A DNA stretch of 33,779 nt, taken from a virus. Every line of letters starts with the position of its first letter. The first letter of the stretch is position 1. The notes beneath the pieces are model-generated. The model ran no database searches. It was not told where the DNA came from and worked only from the letters and a program-made list of their open reading frames with translations. The position numbers and the translations under genes were made by a program. The stretch is taken from positions 1 through 33,779 of the IMG/VR virus record IMGVR_UViG_3300031975_000086. One strand, 5' to 3'. Shown here piece by piece: positions 9,819 to 30,096 of the stretch.

Positions 9819-10331
9819 TTAATTTAACAAGTTTAAAGCCTGTTCTTTTGTCTCATCATTTCTTCTAATCCAACCACGACCAAACGTATCAAACGTACTT
9901 AAAGATCGGTAGAAGTTATCTCGCATATGGTGCATTTGTTCTATTATTTCTGCTGGCTCTACTTCCAACACAGCCTGTAGTGTCATTGGGCCTATGCCGC
10001 CATCTTGCTCTACACCTGCAATACGCTGTAGTGCCTTAGCTGATCTGCTTGTTCCAGAGTTTACACCCCAATCAAATACAGACCAGTCAACACCAGAAGG
10101 AAGGTCATCTGCTCGAATGCGATCCCAATAGTTCTCTCTATATATAGGATACACATCATCGTGGGTAAGACCCTCCATCTCACCGTCCATTACTTGCCGA
10201 CCAGCATACTGTTCGTAAACTGCGCGTGTAACTCCATGATTTGTCTCGCCGCCAGGATCATTAGGGTGATTTACATACCCCCCTTCGTGTTCTAACAGCC
10301 AACCCATGCACTGTTCAAAATTTTGTTTCAT
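9819..10331 (-). CDS. Endolysin, glycoside hydrolase family 108 muramidase
   Basis: A 170-residue peptidoglycan hydrolase. The N terminus has the family signature: E16 in H-E-G-G-Y, then N-D-P-G-G-E-T-N-H-G-V-T (24-35). E16 is the expected catalytic acid. Residues about 105-145 (Q-D-G-G-I-G-P-M-T-L-Q-A-V) match the small peptidoglycan-binding domain usually found at the C terminus of this family (GH108 plus PG_binding_3). Length is typical. There is no signal peptide, so release should depend on the holin encoded just upstream, whose stop overlaps this start (ATGA, 10328-10331). It cleaves the cell wall glycan at the end of infection. Confidence 0.93.
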   Translation of the reverse strand: MKQNFEQCMGWLLEHEGGYVNHPNDPGGETNHGVTRAVYEQYAGRQVMDGEMEGLTHDDVYPIYRENYWDRIRADDLPSGVDWSVFDWGVNSGTSRSAKALQRIAGVEQDGGIGPMTLQAVLEVEPAEIIEQMHHMRDNFYRSLSTFDTFGRGWIRRNDETKEQALNLLN

Positions 10332-10792
10332 TTTGCATTCTTTCTTAGTTTAGCAAATTGGCGTGATCCAAACCAAAATGAGATAATACTTGTAAAGAGT
10401 AAATTTGTATCGTCATTCCATATAGCTTGTGCCGCATCGTTAAATGAAACACCTGTACTCATAGAATAGAATAAGCCACTAATTTTTACAGTCAGAAACA
10501 AACCCACAAATAAATATGTTACAACTGGCCTGACTGACCCTGATAGCGCCGCTGCGAATCCAGACTTAGCGTTAGCTGCCGCCATACTCTTATATATGCC
10601 TTCCGCTTCAGCAATATCTGCTTTAGACTCAAGTTCGTCTAATTTAAGAGAAGATAATTGCGCTGCGTACTTACCCTTGGCCTCAAGCATTTTAAGCTCT
10701 TGGGCATCTTTCTGTTTTTGCTGAAAAAGATCAAGAATACTGGGAATGATAGAAGTACCAAATCCTAGCGCTGCTCCTAACAGTGATAACAT
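10328..10792 (-). CDS. Holin, 3-transmembrane family
   Basis: A 154-residue membrane protein with a hydrophobic N-terminal stretch (about 3-22), a central charged Lys/Glu/Ala-rich helix (about 24-70), a strong membrane segment after the R-P-V-V-T-Y motif (about 88-110) and a third segment (about 129-146) ending in F-G-S-R-Q. This layout is that of the 3TM holin family known from gene transfer agents and many marine phages. It forms the inner-membrane lesion that lets the endolysin reach the wall. The gene overlaps the endolysin by 4 bases, the classic holin/endolysin pair, and follows two other small membrane-protein genes. Confidence 0.85.
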   Translation of the reverse strand: MLSLLGAALGFGTSIIPSILDLFQQKQKDAQELKMLEAKGKYAAQLSSLKLDELESKADIAEAEGIYKSMAAANAKSGFAAALSGSVRPVVTYLFVGLFLTVKISGLFYSMSTGVSFNDAAQAIWNDDTNLLFTSIISFWFGSRQFAKLRKNAK

Positions 10793-10801
10793 ATTATCCT
10801 C

Positions 10802-11125
10802 CTATTTTAATTTAGTCTTAGAAATAGCTGTAGCACCCATAAAACCAACCACCACACCTAACTGAGCAACGATAAAAGTGTTTAAAAAACCTGAAGCAGT
10901 CGCAACTCTTTCAACAGCTACTACAGGTGTTAGCAAAACAACGACAGCTACAATCGTCACAATCATTGCAATCCACGCCATAATACGTTGCGTATCGGCC
11001 AGCTTGTCTTCATTCTCTAAACGTATCCAACGCTCGTGGCGATCCATCTCATCATCGGTTATAACACCGTCACCATCCGCATCTGCCATTGCGTACTTAC
11101 TATTTTCTTGTAATTTCTTAGCCAT
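10802..11125 (-). CDS. Two-TM membrane protein with a canonical EF-hand loop, 107 aa
   Basis: Starts at the ATG at 11125, which has AGGAG 5 bases upstream; an in-frame TTG at 11152 has no such site. Residues 15-26 read D-A-D-G-D-G-V-I-T-D-D-E: Asp at loop positions 1, 3 and 5, Gly at 6, Ile at 8 and Glu at 12, a full EF-hand calcium-binding loop. Two hydrophobic segments follow at about 47-70 and 77-100. With the loop on the short N-terminal side, calcium would be sensed either in the cytoplasm or the periplasm depending on topology. It lies between a coiled-coil membrane protein and the holin, so a role in lysis (holin, antiholin or timing) is plausible but unproven. Confidence 0.75.
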   Translation of the reverse strand: MAKKLQENSKYAMADADGDGVITDDEMDRHERWIRLENEDKLADTQRIMAWIAMIVTIVAVVVLLTPVVAVERVATASGFLNTFIVAQLGVVVGFMGATAISKTKLK

Positions 11126-11148: not shown

Positions 11149-11706
11149 TCAATTAGACAACGGGTTGTCAAGAGCCTCCTGTAATCTCTCATTTAACTGT
11201 TCTTCAAGTTTACGCATATCTTCTTCTATTCTGTTTTCTATGTCGCGCATTGTATCACGAACATCCTTCTCTGTCTCCCTATTTAACGTTTCAACCTCTC
11301 TTATTGCAGCTGTCACGTCTTTTTGCACCTCGTTCATTTGATTAAGAACGTCTTCTAATACCAAGTCTATAGAACTTTGCGTTGTTTTTATACGTTCTGA
11401 GGAATTTTCAATCTTTGTTTCAAGCTTATCAATATACCCCTCTAGTTTAAGAAGATCATCTCTGAGGTTGTTCTTAATGTCTCTGGTATAAACAATAGCG
11501 TCATCTAGCTTTGTTAAAACCAACTCGTTCTCAGCTTTAATCTCGTCTATGTCGATCTCCTGCACTACTTCGCGCAAATCAAGATAATCAAAATAAAACT
11601 CGTAACCTACATACGCCGACCCTGCTAACGTGCTTAATGCTGTGACTGCAATACCGATTTTACCAAAGCCAGAAAATTTTACGCCACCTACTTCCATCTC
11701 TGCCAT
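11149..11706 (-). CDS. Membrane-anchored long coiled-coil protein, 185 aa
   Basis: One membrane segment at about residues 14-36 is followed by about 140 residues of nearly unbroken heptad-like sequence rich in Glu, Lys, Asp, Leu and Ile, ending near the C terminus. Topology is probably N-in with the coiled coil in the periplasm. Such a rod spanning the periplasm recalls i-spanins (Rz-like), although this one is longer than usual, and sits immediately before the EF-hand protein, holin and endolysin. The adjacent probable lipoprotein at 11716 could be its outer-membrane partner. I do not recognise the family; the spanin idea is inference from layout. Confidence 0.65.
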   Translation of the reverse strand: MAEMEVGGVKFSGFGKIGIAVTALSTLAGSAYVGYEFYFDYLDLREVVQEIDIDEIKAENELVLTKLDDAIVYTRDIKNNLRDDLLKLEGYIDKLETKIENSSERIKTTQSSIDLVLEDVLNQMNEVQKDVTAAIREVETLNRETEKDVRDTMRDIENRIEEDMRKLEEQLNERLQEALDNPLSN

Positions 11707-11715
11707 AATCTTCTC

Positions 11716-12144
11716 CTAATTCTCAAACGATAAGTCATTACCCAACTCACGCAACCTATTAATTTCCTGTTGTAGCTTCATTACTTCTAGTTGTTTTTTC
11801 TTTAATTCAATCTCATACAGCCTGTTACAGTCTAACCGGGAGCCTTTATTCCTTCTGCCCAGTGGTATTGTAATTTTAGAATAAATACCAATATCGCCTG
11901 TTTTACCACTGTTTTCCGCTGTGCCGCCCTGAATGATAGATGTAAGTCCAAACTCAATGTTCGTTGCACTCCCTAGCGCCATGCTACAATCAAGTTCTCC
12001 TGCTCTAAAAGAATCTGACTGATAGTTACCGCCTGTGTTAGGGAGAGATAGACTTAGCGAGTTAGATGTACTATCGGCAAAAACACTTATTACACTGCAA
12101 CTTGTTACAGACATAACAACTATAATAAATAACCATACTTTCAT
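11716..12144 (-). CDS. Probable lipoprotein with two LDC motifs and coiled-coil tail, 142 aa
   Basis: The ATG at 12144 overlaps the previous stop as ATGA; an upstream in-frame TTG is less likely. Residues 1-23 are an export signal containing V-T-S-C (C16), a fair lipobox; cleavage by signal peptidase I after V-F-A (21-23) is the alternative. The mature part has a Ser/Leu-rich stretch, a beta-type middle with C53 (E-L-D-C-S-M), C106 (R-L-D-C-N-R-L-Y), then a Lys/Glu/Leu helix. The two Cys could form a disulfide. I recall proteins with this paired L-D-C pattern next to curli/CsgG-like genes in marine bacteria and phages, but no function is known. No CsgG is present here. Confidence 0.65.
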   Translation of the reverse strand: MKVWLFIIVVMSVTSCSVISVFADSTSNSLSLSLPNTGGNYQSDSFRAGELDCSMALGSATNIEFGLTSIIQGGTAENSGKTGDIGIYSKITIPLGRRNKGSRLDCNRLYEIELKKKQLEVMKLQQEINRLRELGNDLSFEN

Positions 12145-12515
12145 TCTATTTTTGAGCAAATCCTTGAAGTTATCAAAGCTCTCTGCTCTTCTCCCTTAAA
12201 AACTTTTGATATTGTACATATGTATCCAACCCTATCTAGGTCAGAGTTTCGTATATAAACATCAAATGGATATTTTTTAGCGTGTTTTACCTTTATCAGT
12301 TTTGATGTAGAGGCAAAGGGTATTTCTTTCCAATCTAAGGTAAACACACCTATTTGGTAGTATGAAACATCATTACGCCTGTTAAACAAAAACATTTTTG
12401 TCACAGACACTCCCTCAATATAACTATAGTTAAACTTTGGGTATGCTGGAGTCATTTCATGTGCCTGAGCCTGAAACCCAAACAACATAAAAATTAAAGC
12501 TACTTTGCTATACAT
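12141..12515 (-). CDS. Exported small beta protein, weakly chaperone-like, 124 aa
   Basis: Residues 1-18 are a clear Sec signal ending A-Q-A. The mature part is about 106 residues and strand-rich: V-T-K-M-F-L-F-N-R-R-N-D then Y-Y-Q-I-G-V-F-T-L-D-W, and a late K-K-Y-P-F-D-V-Y-I-R. Two Cys near the end (G-Y-I-C, S-R-I-C) could pair. The strand order and the N-R-R-N / D-W pattern are faintly like the first Ig domain of PapD-type pilus chaperones, but length and motifs fall short, so this is only a suggestion. The gene overlaps the pilin-like gene by 16 bases and has no strong ribosome site, so coupling to that gene is likely. It overlaps the following gene by 4. Confidence 0.6.
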   Translation of the reverse strand: MYSKVALIFMLFGFQAQAHEMTPAYPKFNYSYIEGVSVTKMFLFNRRNDVSYYQIGVFTLDWKEIPFASTSKLIKVKHAKKYPFDVYIRNSDLDRVGYICTISKVFKGEEQRALITSRICSKIE

Positions 12516-12997
12516 TCAGCTAATATTAATGCTGTATAAGTCCCAGAAGGAAATGCACGATTATATCCATATTCAACCGTTGAAGCTACTGTAAAGAATG
12601 TCGTTCCTGCCAAAGTCATATCGAAGGTTGTTTCATTGCCCACAACTACCTTACCTGTTTCATACGCGCTCATGCCCGAAGCACTTCCAGATGTGTAAAC
12701 ACTACTGCCCGTCCAAGTTAATGTATCACTTAATGAAGGTGATGAGCTAAAACTATTCGGGTGTGTAATCTTTACTTTGTACTTATCAGCCGTTCCTATT
12801 TGAGTTTTTATAACAGCATCTTGACCCCCATCTGCGGCAGCAGTTGAAAGCTTCCATATGTTTGGCACCCCGTACTGTCCGGGAGTTGTCGTTACAATGC
12901 TACAACTAGCTTGAACTGTACCTGTAATTGGCGAGTTGACTGCCCAAGCGTAACTGGTCGAAAGCAAAAATATTAAAGGTGTTATTTTTTTAATCAT
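12500..12997 (-). CDS. Pilin-like exported beta protein, 165 aa
   Basis: A Sec signal (1-19, ending A-W-A) is followed by I-T-G-T-V-Q-A-S-C-S-I-V with C32, a Ser/Thr/Gly-rich beta body and a last strand Y-T-A-L-I-L-A-E-C with C162. One Cys after the first strand and another at the end of the last, with a Gly-rich approach (P-S-G-T-Y), is the layout of spore-coat-U/fimbrial-like Ig-fold subunits. No usher or sortase partner is in the window. GGAG lies before the ATG. A secreted subunit that assembles on the cell or virion, or a receptor-masking protein, are possibilities. Homology is tentative; export is well supported. Confidence 0.65.
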   Translation of the reverse strand: MIKKITPLIFLLSTSYAWAVNSPITGTVQASCSIVTTTPGQYGVPNIWKLSTAAADGGQDAVIKTQIGTADKYKVKITHPNSFSSSPSLSDTLTWTGSSVYTSGSASGMSAYETGKVVVGNETTFDMTLAGTTFFTVASTVEYGYNRAFPSGTYTALILAECIAK

Positions 12998-13011
12998 GTT
13001 ATCTCCGTTTG

Positions 13012-13899
13012 TTAGTCGTCATACTGAGAACGAACCATACTTCTGTGGACGCTGTCTTGGCCTAAACTTCTAAAAGCCTTAACGTTGTCTTTAAATTCAC
13101 CGCCGTCTATTTGTAAGACATCTTCATAGACACCCCCATCTATATCAAGATTATAATATAATTCAAGTTTTCCAACAGCAGCGATCTGTTGCATCATTTC
13201 TAATTGCTGCACAGGATCTGCAATTTTATCTACAACACCCGCGACTGATAGTATTTCTTCTACGGTCAGTTCTTCACTTTCTTCTTCTTCTTCAGCCTCT
13301 TCAACTTCTTGCTCTTCTAACTCTGCCTGTTCCTCTAATTGTATCTGTACCCATTTATTATAGTAAGGATCTTCCACGTTTTGTGCATCGAGTAATTCGT
13401 TATCAAGTAAGTATTGGTACAGCGCGTCTTTAAAATTAGGACAGGTTGGGTCGTTAAGAGGTGTATCACACGGGTCGTATTTATAATGGTACAGTATTAA
13501 AACGTCAGAAAGAGATCCGTCCCCTGTAACTTTTATCTCACCATCGCCAAAAAGAGTGCCAAGTGTAGGCGCTATTGGGTCATATTTAATCTTTGTGCCG
13601 CTGGGCAAGTTGTTCCAATCGTCTACATACTCATAGACATTGTCGTCACTACCCACTTTTTTGTTTGTAATTGACACAGTTGCGTCTGTAGTTGAATCTT
13701 TGGTTATTGTGTATTTGTGGAACACACCCTCGATTGTCAGATTATTTTGGGCTGGGAGTAGGTTATTCATTACCCATTTGTGTGCGTTCGAAGCAGCGTT
13801 CTTTGTGTTACCGTAAATATTCTCAGAGTAAGAATAACAAGGCCAAGAAAAGACCGCCAATGCCAGCAGCCCCACGAGCTGTTGCCTTATCGTCTTCAT
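13012..13899 (-). CDS. Exported acidic protein, 295 aa
   Basis: Starts at the ATG at 13899, which has AAGGAG 7 bases upstream; a start 9 codons earlier lacks this. Residues 1-25 are a Sec signal. The mature part has a beta-type domain (about 45-140) with repeated Thr/Asp strands and G-D-G-E-I-K-V-T-G-D-G, a Cys pair in D-P-C-D-T-P-L-N-D-P-T-C, a very acidic Glu-rich stretch (about 195-225) that may be coiled coil, and a C-terminal mixed domain. No known family recognised. Its first 77 bases lie inside the preceding gene in another frame, so its signal peptide is encoded over that gene's C-terminal hydrophobic segment. It is part of the exported-protein cassette. Confidence 0.7.
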   Translation of the reverse strand: MKTIRQQLVGLLALAVFSWPCYSYSENIYGNTKNAASNAHKWVMNNLLPAQNNLTIEGVFHKYTITKDSTTDATVSITNKKVGSDDNVYEYVDDWNNLPSGTKIKYDPIAPTLGTLFGDGEIKVTGDGSLSDVLILYHYKYDPCDTPLNDPTCPNFKDALYQYLLDNELLDAQNVEDPYYNKWVQIQLEEQAELEEQEVEEAEEEEESEELTVEEILSVAGVVDKIADPVQQLEMMQQIAAVGKLELYYNLDIDGGVYEDVLQIDGGEFKDNVKAFRSLGQDSVHRSMVRSQYDD

Positions 13900-14431
13900 C
13901 CCATTTCTCCTTCTTACCCGCAACATAGCCAGGTACTAAATGTGGATTGTTTTCCCACTCAGTTTTAGCCGCATCTCCCACAAGACCGTTGATTGGACAT
14001 GGGGTGCCAGAATTAATCATCGCCGTCCAAATTCTTTTGTCCTCACACATAATTGCTACAGCACTTATTTTTAAGCCCATATCGTACATGACCTTGGCAT
14101 TTTTTAGGCGCTCACAGTTTAAATCTCTAATGGTTGTGCCGCCACTAATTCCCAATATCTGCGTCTGCACAGAACCGCCCGCAGGTATGTGACACGTATC
14201 TGAGCTTGATGAATTAATACTAGGAGACATAGCGGAGGGTGGGGGAGACTTTACAGTAGTCGTACTGGTTATGTTAGAATTAGTTGTAGAATTTGTATTA
14301 CTGTTTGTCTCAATACAGTTACTGTTCGTTGCGCTATCGCAGCCTTCATCTGCGTAAACCATAGGCACCAGTACAATTAAAAACAATAAAGCTAAAAACA
14401 CCCAGGTTAAGTACAACAAAGATTTTTTCAT
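13823..14431 (-). CDS. Exported Cys-containing protein with C-terminal anchor, 202 aa
   Basis: The ATG at 14431 has GGAG 6 bases upstream and overlaps the stop of the small lipoprotein gene (ATGA); a TTG 4 codons earlier falls in the ribosome site itself. An N-terminal signal (about 1-27) is followed by an Asn/Ser/Thr-rich linker (about 35-75), then a compact domain with four Cys: T-C-H-I-P-A-G-G-S, D-L-N-C-E-R-L-K-N-A-K, A-I-M-C-E-D-K and G-T-P-C-P-I. The C terminus is a hydrophobic segment (G-I-G-G-L-F-L-A-L-L-F-L-L) that could anchor it in a membrane. I recall the N-C-E-R / G-T-P-C-P pattern from other marine phages, without a known role. Confidence 0.72.
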   Translation of the reverse strand: MKKSLLYLTWVFLALLFLIVLVPMVYADEGCDSATNSNCIETNSNTNSTTNSNITSTTTVKSPPPSAMSPSINSSSSDTCHIPAGGSVQTQILGISGGTTIRDLNCERLKNAKVMYDMGLKISAVAIMCEDKRIWTAMINSGTPCPINGLVGDAAKTEWENNPHLVPGYVAGKKEKWDEDDKATARGAAGIGGLFLALLFLL

Positions 14432-14547
14432 CGTTTGCTCCAACTACAGAAATCCTTACCAAGTGTCATCGGACAGTCTAATGTAAAGCCTGTACAACCA
14501 GGTATAATTAAAAATATTATTAAAAAATATTTAAAAAGCATACGCAT
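14428..14547 (-). CDS. Small lipoprotein, 39 aa
   Basis: A 39-codon ORF with an export signal and I-P-G-C lipobox at residues 15-18. It begins M-R-M-L-F-K-Y-F-L-I-I-F, and the short mature part has two more Cys (L-D-C-P-M-T, D-F-C-S-W). The start could be residue 1 or 3. Its TGA overlaps the next ATG as ATGA, and it fills the gap between two convincing genes. The ribosome site is weak (TAGG, about 10 bases away). After cleavage only about 22 residues would remain, tethered to the outer or inner membrane. Rz1-type o-spanins are somewhat longer and Pro-rich, so I do not call it one. Confidence 0.65.
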   Translation of the reverse strand: MRMLFKYFLIIFLIIPGCTGFTLDCPMTLGKDFCSWSKR

Positions 14548-14557
14548 TTAATAAAAC

Positions 14558-14749
14558 CTACCCCATTTTAAGTAATATACTCACTAACATAGCAATAGTA
14601 GCGCCAAGCCCACCCACTAAAAATACTTCTAAACGTTTTAATCTATAGAAAACTTCTTTAAACTGAATGTGATTTTCAGTCTCTAGTTTAGTAATCTTAG
14701 GTTCGATTGTATCTATGCGGTCGTGAGCTTGCACTACTGTTCTTGCCAT
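14558..14749 (-). CDS. XhlA-like small coiled-coil membrane protein, 63 aa
   Basis: Residues about 5-40 form an amphipathic, heptad-like helix (R-I-D-T-I-E-P-K-I-T-K-L-E), and residues about 42-62 a single C-terminal membrane segment. This is the plan of the haemolysin XhlA family, small proteins that work beside holins in cell lysis. The resemblance is in layout rather than identical residues. It stands just upstream of the exported-protein cassette and about 4 kb before the recognised holin, with the export genes between. It may be part of the lysis set or serve the cassette. Confidence 0.55.
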   Translation of the reverse strand: MARTVVQAHDRIDTIEPKITKLETENHIQFKEVFYRLKRLEVFLVGGLGATIAMLVSILLKMG

Positions 14750-15300: not shown

Positions 15301-15936
15301 TTATTTTTCCTCTATATTAATATTACCTGATATTGATATTCTTTCCCCGTCACTTTCATAGAACGGAAAAACTTGGTGGAGCATTTGCGAGGGAAACATA
15401 ACCATGTAACCTTCTGCTTCCTTCTCCATATTATACGCAAATGTAGATACTTTGCCTAGTGTATTTGTGTAACTAAACGCAAAGTTAGATATGTGATTAT
15501 CTGCATTTGACTCAGCGCATACAGGTAGCTTGCGCTGTTCTGCAAAGGATGTAGGTATCTGCATCCATATAACAAAACTATAAACGCCACCGTGATCATG
15601 TGGTGGGTTAAACTCGTGCTCCTTCTGAAAGTTTACCCAGAGGCTTTCTAGGTTAAACCCTTCACCTTCCTTCATTACAGCTCTCCAAGGTGGCCCATAA
15701 GACTCCATGTGACTGTCCATAAACTTAGGGATTAACTCACCGACAAACTCTTCTAGCAGTGGTGAGCTACCATCAAGGCGTATAGAGGAGCTGATGTTAC
15801 CTGCAAGTTCAGGCTTCATGTTATCTGGCTTCTCTCTTGCCTCGTTAATCACAGTCCATAGGTTAGCCACAACATCCTCTGGGAGTTGTCCTTCAACAAC
15901 CCCTATGTTTGGAAAGTGACGTGGCATTAGCTCCAT
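15301..15936 (-). CDS. 2-oxoglutarate/Fe(II)-dependent oxygenase, 211 aa
   Basis: A double-stranded beta-helix oxygenase of the small phage/marine type (2OG-FeII_Oxy_5-like). Metal-site candidates are H113-D114-H115 in N-P-P-H-D-H-G-G and the distal H187 in F-P-S-Q-M-L-H-Q-V-F-P; R199 in E-R-I-S-I-S-G-N-I would hold the 2-oxoglutarate carboxylate. Order and spacing of these three blocks fit the family, and length (about 200) is normal. It would hydroxylate a substrate using O2 and 2-oxoglutarate. The substrate is unknown; its place right after the fibre gene hints at a virion protein, but related enzymes are widespread in marine phages in other contexts too. AAGG lies about 7 bases before the ATG. 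Confidence 0.85.
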   Translation of the reverse strand: MELMPRHFPNIGVVEGQLPEDVVANLWTVINEAREKPDNMKPELAGNISSSIRLDGSSPLLEEFVGELIPKFMDSHMESYGPPWRAVMKEGEGFNLESLWVNFQKEHEFNPPHDHGGVYSFVIWMQIPTSFAEQRKLPVCAESNADNHISNFAFSYTNTLGKVSTFAYNMEKEAEGYMVMFPSQMLHQVFPFYESDGERISISGNINIEEK

Positions 15937-29411: not shown

Positions 29412-29906
29412 TTATACATATGAAATGTCTGTGGGGTCAAGTATTGTTGCAATAATATTGTCGTCATTTATGATACGAACCTCAAGTCCGTCCACTTTGA
29501 ACCTATTTCCACTATATCTTCCTATAAGAACCCATGACTTTTCAGAACACCACGAACCACTTGGGAACTTTTGGGCGTCTTTATAGGCATCAGGTCCTAA
29601 TTTAACGACATAAGCAGATACTGTTGCAAAACTTTCCTTTTCCCTAATAGCGTCAGGAACAATAATGCCCCCTTTTGTTTTTGCGCTGGGATAGTAAGGA
29701 ATAATCAAAACCCTATAACCAGTAGGCTGTGGAAGTCTTTCCAGGGCAGATGGCTCTAAATTAGAGGGGTCACTTTCATTTTTATTTTCTTCCTTCTTCT
29801 TACCAAATGCTGTTTCTAAGGGCTTTGGTAGTTCTGAAGAAACTTTTTTGTCTTTTGCCGCTGCTCTTGCAACGTGTTCTGGGACGAATAATTTCTTGTT
29901 AGTCAT
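29412..29906 (-). CDS. GroES-like co-chaperonin, 164 aa
   Basis: The ATG at 29906 is preferred over a TTG two codons earlier; GAG lies 7 bases upstream. Residues about 1-60 are a charged extension not found in bacterial GroES. From about 62 the Cpn10 fold is readable: G-Y-R-V-L-I-I-P, a mobile loop K-T-K-G-G-I-I-V-P-D, a core V-V-K-L-G-P-D-A-Y, then W-V-L-I-G-R-Y and I-I-N-D-D-N-I-I-A-T-I. The mobile loop normally binds GroEL through its hydrophobic tripeptide, here G-I-I-V. It likely adapts the host chaperonin to fold the coat protein, as T4 gp31 does. It sits between portal and scaffold genes, and its start overlaps the preceding stop by 8 bases. Confidence 0.82.
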   Translation of the reverse strand: MTNKKLFVPEHVARAAAKDKKVSSELPKPLETAFGKKKEENKNESDPSNLEPSALERLPQPTGYRVLIIPYYPSAKTKGGIIVPDAIREKESFATVSAYVVKLGPDAYKDAQKFPSGSWCSEKSWVLIGRYSGNRFKVDGLEVRIINDDNIIATILDPTDISYV

Positions 29907-30096
29907 CGTCAAGCTCTATACCTTTCATCGCGGTTTTAATTTCGTCTTCAACGTAGGCCATTCCGCGTATTTCGCCTACAACGTACCGATATTCTTCAAA
30001 TGATTTAATCGAATTGTCCGCAAGCTTATCTTTCAATCTACCATCGCGCTCACGAATACTTTTTAGTAGATAATCTGCTAAACTTATAGCTTCCAT
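29899..30096 (-). CDS. Small acidic helical protein, 65 aa
   Basis: A 65-residue, mostly helical protein: L-A-D-Y-L-L-K-S-I-R-E-R, then S-F-E-E-Y-R-Y-V-V-G-E-I-R-G-M and an acidic end (E-L-D-D-D). I recall similar small proteins before the co-chaperonin or scaffold in marine phages. A strong AGGAGG site lies 6 bases before the ATG, just touching a hairpin (separate entry). The end overlaps the co-chaperonin start. No function can be assigned. Confidence 0.65.
   Translation of the reverse strand: MEAISLADYLLKSIRERDGRLKDKLADNSIKSFEEYRYVVGEIRGMAYVEDEIKTAMKGIELDDD

Follow-up and report, generated by a model that had tools for sequence, protein, structure and literature searches.

The described systems closest to the locus reported here are the chaperone-usher pili, the curli-type (type VIII secretion) clusters that pelagiphages carry (PMC7029224, PMC9599517), the two-component spanins, and a three-gene block found in a few isolated phages. 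The pilus chaperones of the FGL class have a conserved disulfide between strands F1 and G1, which is absent from the other chaperone classes (PMC4133393). Literature searches returned nothing on a chaperone/pilin pair encoded by a phage. The present locus lies in IMG/VR virus record IMGVR_UViG_3300031975_000086, of which positions 1 to 33,779 were analysed as a single stretch of 33,779 bases (the window). The portal protein of this virus is most similar to those of pelagiphage HTVC023P and its relatives, and the virus is, judged by its sequence, HTVC023P-like. Between its tail-fibre region and its lysis operon, on the minus strand, stands a block of six genes for exported proteins (p202, p295, p165, p124, p142 and p185). 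The block is undescribed and is common to many marine viruses, among which at least two unrelated body plans are represented.

The six genes stand in the strictly collinear order p202-p295-p165-p124-p142-p185, and 166 loci have them all. A further 42 loci that have p165, p124 or p142 are incomplete; in every one of them the sequence ends at most 97 bases from the last gene found, and no internal gap or reordering of the module occurs among the 166 complete and 42 incomplete loci. About 300 loci were collected by searches of viral contigs with p165, p124, p142 and the p202 of HTVC023P; some contigs were fetched repeatedly by different queries, and the counts are therefore of loci, not of independent genomes. 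An earlier note on this DNA had drawn the cassette from p39 to p142, which is off by one gene at each end. Because p39 is found in few relatives (a minority of the loci) and p185 is present in every intact locus, the true unit is 11149-14431, with p185 included and p39 left out; p39 is optional, and the overlooked p185 (11149-11706) is a putative inner-membrane coiled-coil protein. The observation itself is confirmed with this correction of the gene set, and the interpretation given to it is partly supported. That the genes are exported, made together, inherited together and undescribed is supported; a check of gene order, suggested at the time in case the genes never co-occurred in relatives, found them together in every intact locus. 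The genes of the locus and its flank are as follows.

14428-14547, minus strand: p39, 39 amino acids, a tiny predicted lipoprotein, optional neighbour outside the conserved core, with 14 blastp hits.
13823-14431, minus strand: p202, 202 amino acids, core gene, with a signal peptide, a Ser/Thr/Asn/Pro-rich stretch, a conserved four-Cys domain and a hydrophobic C-terminal tail.
13012-13899, minus strand: p295, 295 amino acids, core gene, with a signal peptide, a conserved N-terminal domain, an acidic linker and a conserved C-terminus.
12500-12997, minus strand: p165, 165 amino acids, core gene, a putatively exported, immunoglobulin-like (Ig-like) and pilin-like protein.
12141-12515, minus strand: p124, 124 amino acids, core gene, putatively exported, with one Ig-like domain that resembles domain 1 of PapD-type chaperones.
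11716-12144, minus strand: p142, 142 amino acids, core gene, putatively exported, with beta segments followed by a helix and a lipobox-like motif in the clade of the window.
11149-11706, minus strand: p185, core gene, with an N-terminal membrane anchor, a long coiled coil and a conserved DNPLxN end.
10802-11125, minus strand: p107, with an EF-hand-like loop (weak EF-hand match) and two hydrophobic segments, a frequent neighbour in many loci.
10328-10792, minus strand: holin-like protein encoded in the lysis operon next to the module, with a weak match to GTA_holin_3TM, below the cut-off.
9819-10331, minus strand: GH108 endolysin of the adjoining lysis operon (PF05838, E 2e-31; PF09374, E 3e-9).

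The junctions are tight, and the overlaps reported earlier were reproduced from the coordinates of the open reading frames: 4 nucleotides for p39/p202, 77 for p202/p295, 16 for p165/p124 and 4 for p124/p142, with a gap of 14 nucleotides between p295 and p165. The p202/p295 overlap (13823-13899 in the window) encodes the hydrophobic tail of p202 in one frame and the signal peptide of p295 in another, and is kept at 65-77 nucleotides, with the relative frame unchanged, in all 29 representatives. The ratio of nonsynonymous to synonymous substitution rates (dN/dS) against six relatives was 0.02-0.13 in all six genes wherever it could be computed; p202, p295, p165, p124, p142 and p185 are all under purifying selection.

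Export signals were scored with a simple Sec-signal rule on the 42 genes of the window and on relatives. The rule was positive for p39, p202, p295, p165, p124, p142, p185 (as a signal anchor) and p89, the last being likely a false positive. Among relatives it was positive in 8 of 8 (p39), 28 of 33 (p202), 33 of 34 (p295), 23 of 24 (p165), 33 of 36 (p124) and 28 of 29 (p142), all far from chance. By this crude measure the run of six consecutive genes with Sec or lipoprotein signals that the earlier note had described is real, and the signals it relied upon are both present in the window and kept across relatives. The two lipoproteins that it named fared differently. The 39-residue protein is one by its motif, as p39 relatives have canonical lipoboxes (LSGC, LTGC), found in 8 distinct sequences; the 142-residue protein qualifies only in part, its lipobox-like motif (VTSC, VTGC, MAGC) being confined to the clade of the window and replaced by an ordinary signal in other clades.

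AlphaFold2 models of p124 and p165 (pLDDT, the predicted local distance difference test score, 88.2 and 89.6) were compared with PDB by Foldseek. Eight of the nine matches of the p124 model at E ≤ 1e-3 are PapD-type pilus chaperones, with E 2.6e-4 and probability 1.00 to SfaE and, among the 50 matches listed, a best template modelling (TM) score of 0.63 to DraB. The predicted fold is that of chaperone domain 1; p124 has this domain only and ends after the strand equivalent to its last strand. Alignment and model together place the invariant Cys99 and Cys119 in the last two strands, at the position of the FGL disulfide. On its model p124 thus resembles half a PapD-type chaperone, and membership in the chaperones is not claimed. 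With p124 as the query, BFVD returned a scatter of viral proteins, most of them uncharacterised. The first PDB match of the p165 model is the CFA/I pilin CfaB (E 2.4e-3), followed lower down by the PapG pilin domain, Caf1 and CsuA/B among other Ig-like proteins. An hhalign comparison of p165 with pilins reached 52%, limited to the N-terminal GxVxxxC stretch. The telling point, as far as models go, is that two adjacent proteins, p124 and p165, independently match both partners of one known complex, despite modest E-values. The earlier descriptions of the 165-residue protein as pilin-like and of the 124-residue protein as a beta protein agree with these models, the former through a weak match to chaperone-usher pilins and the latter through an Ig-like domain resembling a pilus chaperone. 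A duplication origin of the pair, each from the other, was considered and is not supported by their comparison.

These likenesses raise the possibility that the infected cell carries a surface fibre or polyadhesin: p165 subunits, with p124 as their chaperone, would be joined by donor-strand exchange and exported through a pore of p142 or p202, and would hold sibling cells together or cover receptors. It is favoured by the resemblance of p165 to chaperone-usher pilins and of p124 to their chaperones, including the FGL-type position of the Cys pair (PMC4133393), and by the curli-type secretion clusters for which pelagiphages are already known (PMC7029224, PMC9599517). However, the usher (PF00577) was found in none of 15 module-bearing records, the window included and several of them fragmentary, with an Escherichia coli control positive, and CsgG (PF03783), the hallmark of the phage curli clusters, in none of ten records including Mosig and HTVC023P, with four control genomes positive. 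Furthermore, the two conserved Cys of p165 stand in the first and last strands of the model; pilins do not usually show this arrangement, and it suggests that the fold is closed. A surface fibre is accordingly placed second among the readings and is considered rather unlikely. Membership in the chaperone-usher family was rejected for want of an usher in the 15 records and of a second chaperone domain, the likeness of fold standing; identity with curli or type VIII secretion was rejected on the CsgG result. It is also doubtful, though conceivable, that marine phages of several body plans have an usher-less chaperone/pilin system of their own, in which p124 would cap p165 and the other four proteins would form a new trans-envelope platform displaying a p165 fibre.

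In IMG/VR, relatives of p165 are encoded in at least 589 stretches. None of 50,697 phage records gave a tblastn match to p165, p124 or p295 or a credible one to p142, and the module as a whole was not found there; p202 matches 11 of these records, mostly pelagiphages and roseophages. Matches to PHROG families were obtained for p202 (phrog_20531, E 2e-13), p165 (phrog_25895, E 2e-8) and p142 (phrog_37374, E 1e-5). Since PHROGs hold p165-like and p142-like families, some isolated or deposited phage has distant relatives of these proteins beyond the reach of tblastn. No Pfam/PHROG-type family match was found for p295 and no Pfam match for p124, and profile searches of the sequences of solved structures with p124, p165 and p142 returned no credible relative. 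The 84,980 bacterial and archaeal genomes searched gave one relative of p124. It is encoded, together with the rest of the module, on a contig of 7.6 kb in a Rhodobacteraceae metagenome-assembled genome; as the complete module is there, this is probably phage DNA.

The major capsid gene of two module-bearing contigs (219,676 and 120,963 bases) is of the T4 type (E 6e-151 and 6e-152), and other module-bearing contigs have tail genes in common with the window. In a tree of p165, p124 and p142 combined, midpoint-rooted and read without support values, the two T4-like contigs are separate from each other, and contigs with the tail genes of the window fall in at least two distant clades. The p165 of one such contig (L119) is 65% identical to that of the T4-like L201 and only 47% identical to that of the window. 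This scatter and this identity point to horizontal transfer of the block between phage types. An order-conserved block in hundreds of environmental viral sequences, podovirus-like and T4-like, likely matters for infection in natural waters. Its spread also bears on the idea that the six proteins are ordinary virion or tail-fibre accessory proteins. The genes do stand downstream of the tail-fibre gene (p1281, with an S74 chaperone domain) and before p704, in the structural half of the genome. Tailed-phage virions are assembled in the cytoplasm, with which export signals on all six proteins are at odds; moreover, podovirus-like and T4-like phages, whose virions differ, both have the module, and no virion protein, which the earlier note had named as a refuting outcome, appeared among the matches. 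Virion parts are regarded as very improbable.

The window also has an S74-type tail fibre and a GroES-like gene; the latter encodes a GroES/Cpn10-domain protein at 29412-29912 (PF00166, E 3e-9), just downstream of the portal gene and placed as is gp36 of HTVC023P. The stretch from the tail-fibre gene to the module includes the gene of a putative 2OG-Fe(II) oxygenase at 15301-15936 (PF13759, E 5e-11). A 63-residue protein at 14558-14749 begins with a coiled-coil-like stretch and has a hydrophobic segment in its C-terminal part; it is up to 100% conserved in near relatives, and a family search gave no match.

The module runs on into holin-like and endolysin genes, both in the window and in close relatives of it. 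The gene for p107 (10802-11125) sits before the holin-like gene, and its relatives recur near the module, also in the T4-like L201 and L222. Among 100 neighbour proteins from 56 wider representatives, matches were to GH19 (8), GH108 (6), SleB (2), M15 (2) and lysozyme (1). Two HlyC-type acyltransferase family matches, one class-3 lipase and one fatty-acid desaturase were also seen among the 100 downstream neighbours. Since hydrolases are among the neighbours, yet some loci have no recognisable lysis gene, the link between module and lysis genes is frequent and not obligatory; the joining of the cassette to the lysis operon, as first described, holds for the window and not for all relatives.

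The sequence of p185 shows a short N-terminus, one anchor, a long coiled coil and a conserved DNPLxN end, and the protein is related to gp48 of HTVC023P (hhalign 93.5%, E 2e-7, with shuffled controls far lower). The sequence of p142 reads as beta-like segments with a helix-like end. A domain shared by p142 and p202, guessed from the motif [DN]C[NE]RL, was unsupported after removal of the signal peptides. The comparison of p295 with gp46 of HTVC023P gave a whole-length score above all 80 shuffles, but with a probability of 4.8%, and the C-terminal part alone was not significant. Pelagiphages have a shorter form of the module, in which p202 is accompanied by an exported acidic protein and a coiled-coil protein resembling p185; all are annotated as hypothetical (HTVC023P gp45-gp48, L001:14264-16843; Mosig_202-200, L004:1250-4313). 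It adjoins a peptidase M15 gene in HTVC023P relatives and lies near a holin-like gene in Mosig.

The module probably serves in leaving the infected cell or in altering its surface. The reading we tentatively prefer, likelier than any other single one and still far from assured, is a self-contained and mobile trans-envelope complex, made late, whose core is pilin-like and chaperone-like and which would be used to open or weaken the outer membrane at exit. All six proteins would be exported via Sec and assemble in the host cell envelope. p185 would be anchored in the inner membrane and span the periplasm as a coiled coil, p142 would lie at or near the outer membrane, and p165, a pilin-like Ig subunit, would be folded or permanently capped by the single-domain PapD-like p124 via strand sharing; p202 and p295 would join the parts of the complex, which would open or weaken the outer membrane so that progeny exit. 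Exit is the most likely use because the module is in a probable late operon, has the holin and endolysin genes next to it in the window and, in other loci, often stands close to cell-wall hydrolases. It is further supported by the strict collinearity, dN/dS, the conserved signals, the fold matches of p124 and p165, the sequence of p185, which is laid out like an inner-membrane spanin, and the presence in T4-like contigs, and by the shorter pelagiphage form, which also adjoins an M15 peptidase or lies near a holin-like gene. The parts of the module are well supported; its function, that is the complex, the strand sharing, the late timing and the role in lysis, we infer from position and likeness only.

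Several results weigh against this reading. The profile of p124, aligned by hhalign locally and globally with ten chaperones of E. coli K-12, the sole source of the chaperone and pilin yardsticks, did not score above shuffled, reversed and rotated controls. The match of p165 to pilins is weak, and Ig-like folds are common. The predicted models cover p124 and p165 as single chains, two of the six members. Some loci, such as the T4-like L201, have no recognisable lysis gene nearby.

The loci apart from lysis genes also suit another proposal, superinfection exclusion or surface remodelling, by which the exported proteins would block the receptor or the DNA entry of later phages. Exported and membrane-anchored proteins, as are those of the module, are typical of superinfection-exclusion systems, and the module moves between phage types and need not adjoin lysis genes. 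The match of p202 to a PHROG annotated as superinfection exclusion is very weak (E 0.039) and within chance. Known systems of this kind are composed of one or two small proteins, against six here, and the module is beside lysis genes in many loci. Exclusion is judged unlikely. As to known anti-phage defence proteins, no PADLOC model matched five of the proteins, and p185 matched only the coiled-coil parts of unrelated models. Exit from the cell ranks first, before a surface fibre, superinfection exclusion and virion parts in that order, and the remainder is left for other functions. If the module opens the outer membrane, it would show by what means phages without recognised spanins exit from the host; a fibre, if that is what it builds, would make it the first known phage-made chaperone/pilin system.

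Compared with chaperone-usher pili of the FGL type (DraB, SafB), the module has a chaperone-like p124 whose model is like the first chaperone domain, with the Cys pair in the last two strands, and a p165 whose model is like pilins, encoded by adjacent, overlapping genes. It differs in that p124 has one domain instead of two and no significant sequence similarity to the chaperones, in its four extra exported proteins, and in being phage-borne. The phage curli clusters (PMC7029224, PMC9599517) are composed of different proteins, with no sequence relation seen, and are like the module as multi-gene exported clusters of marine phages that move between phage families. With the two-component spanins the module appears to have in common the arrangement of p185, a single anchor after a short N-terminus and then a putatively periplasmic coiled coil, as well as the occasional small lipoprotein (p39) in the vicinity and the holin and endolysin genes alongside. 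It differs by five additional exported proteins and by having neither an embedded gene pair nor an obligate outer-membrane lipoprotein partner: p39 is optional and stands five genes away from p185, and the p142 lipobox is limited to one clade. The three-gene block of HTVC023P, HTVC202P and Mosig, itself uncharacterised, is without p165, p124 and p142, and the relation of its acidic protein to p295 is only suggestive; it is like the module in its homologous p202, in gp48 as the relative of p185, in gene order and in its position near lysis genes.

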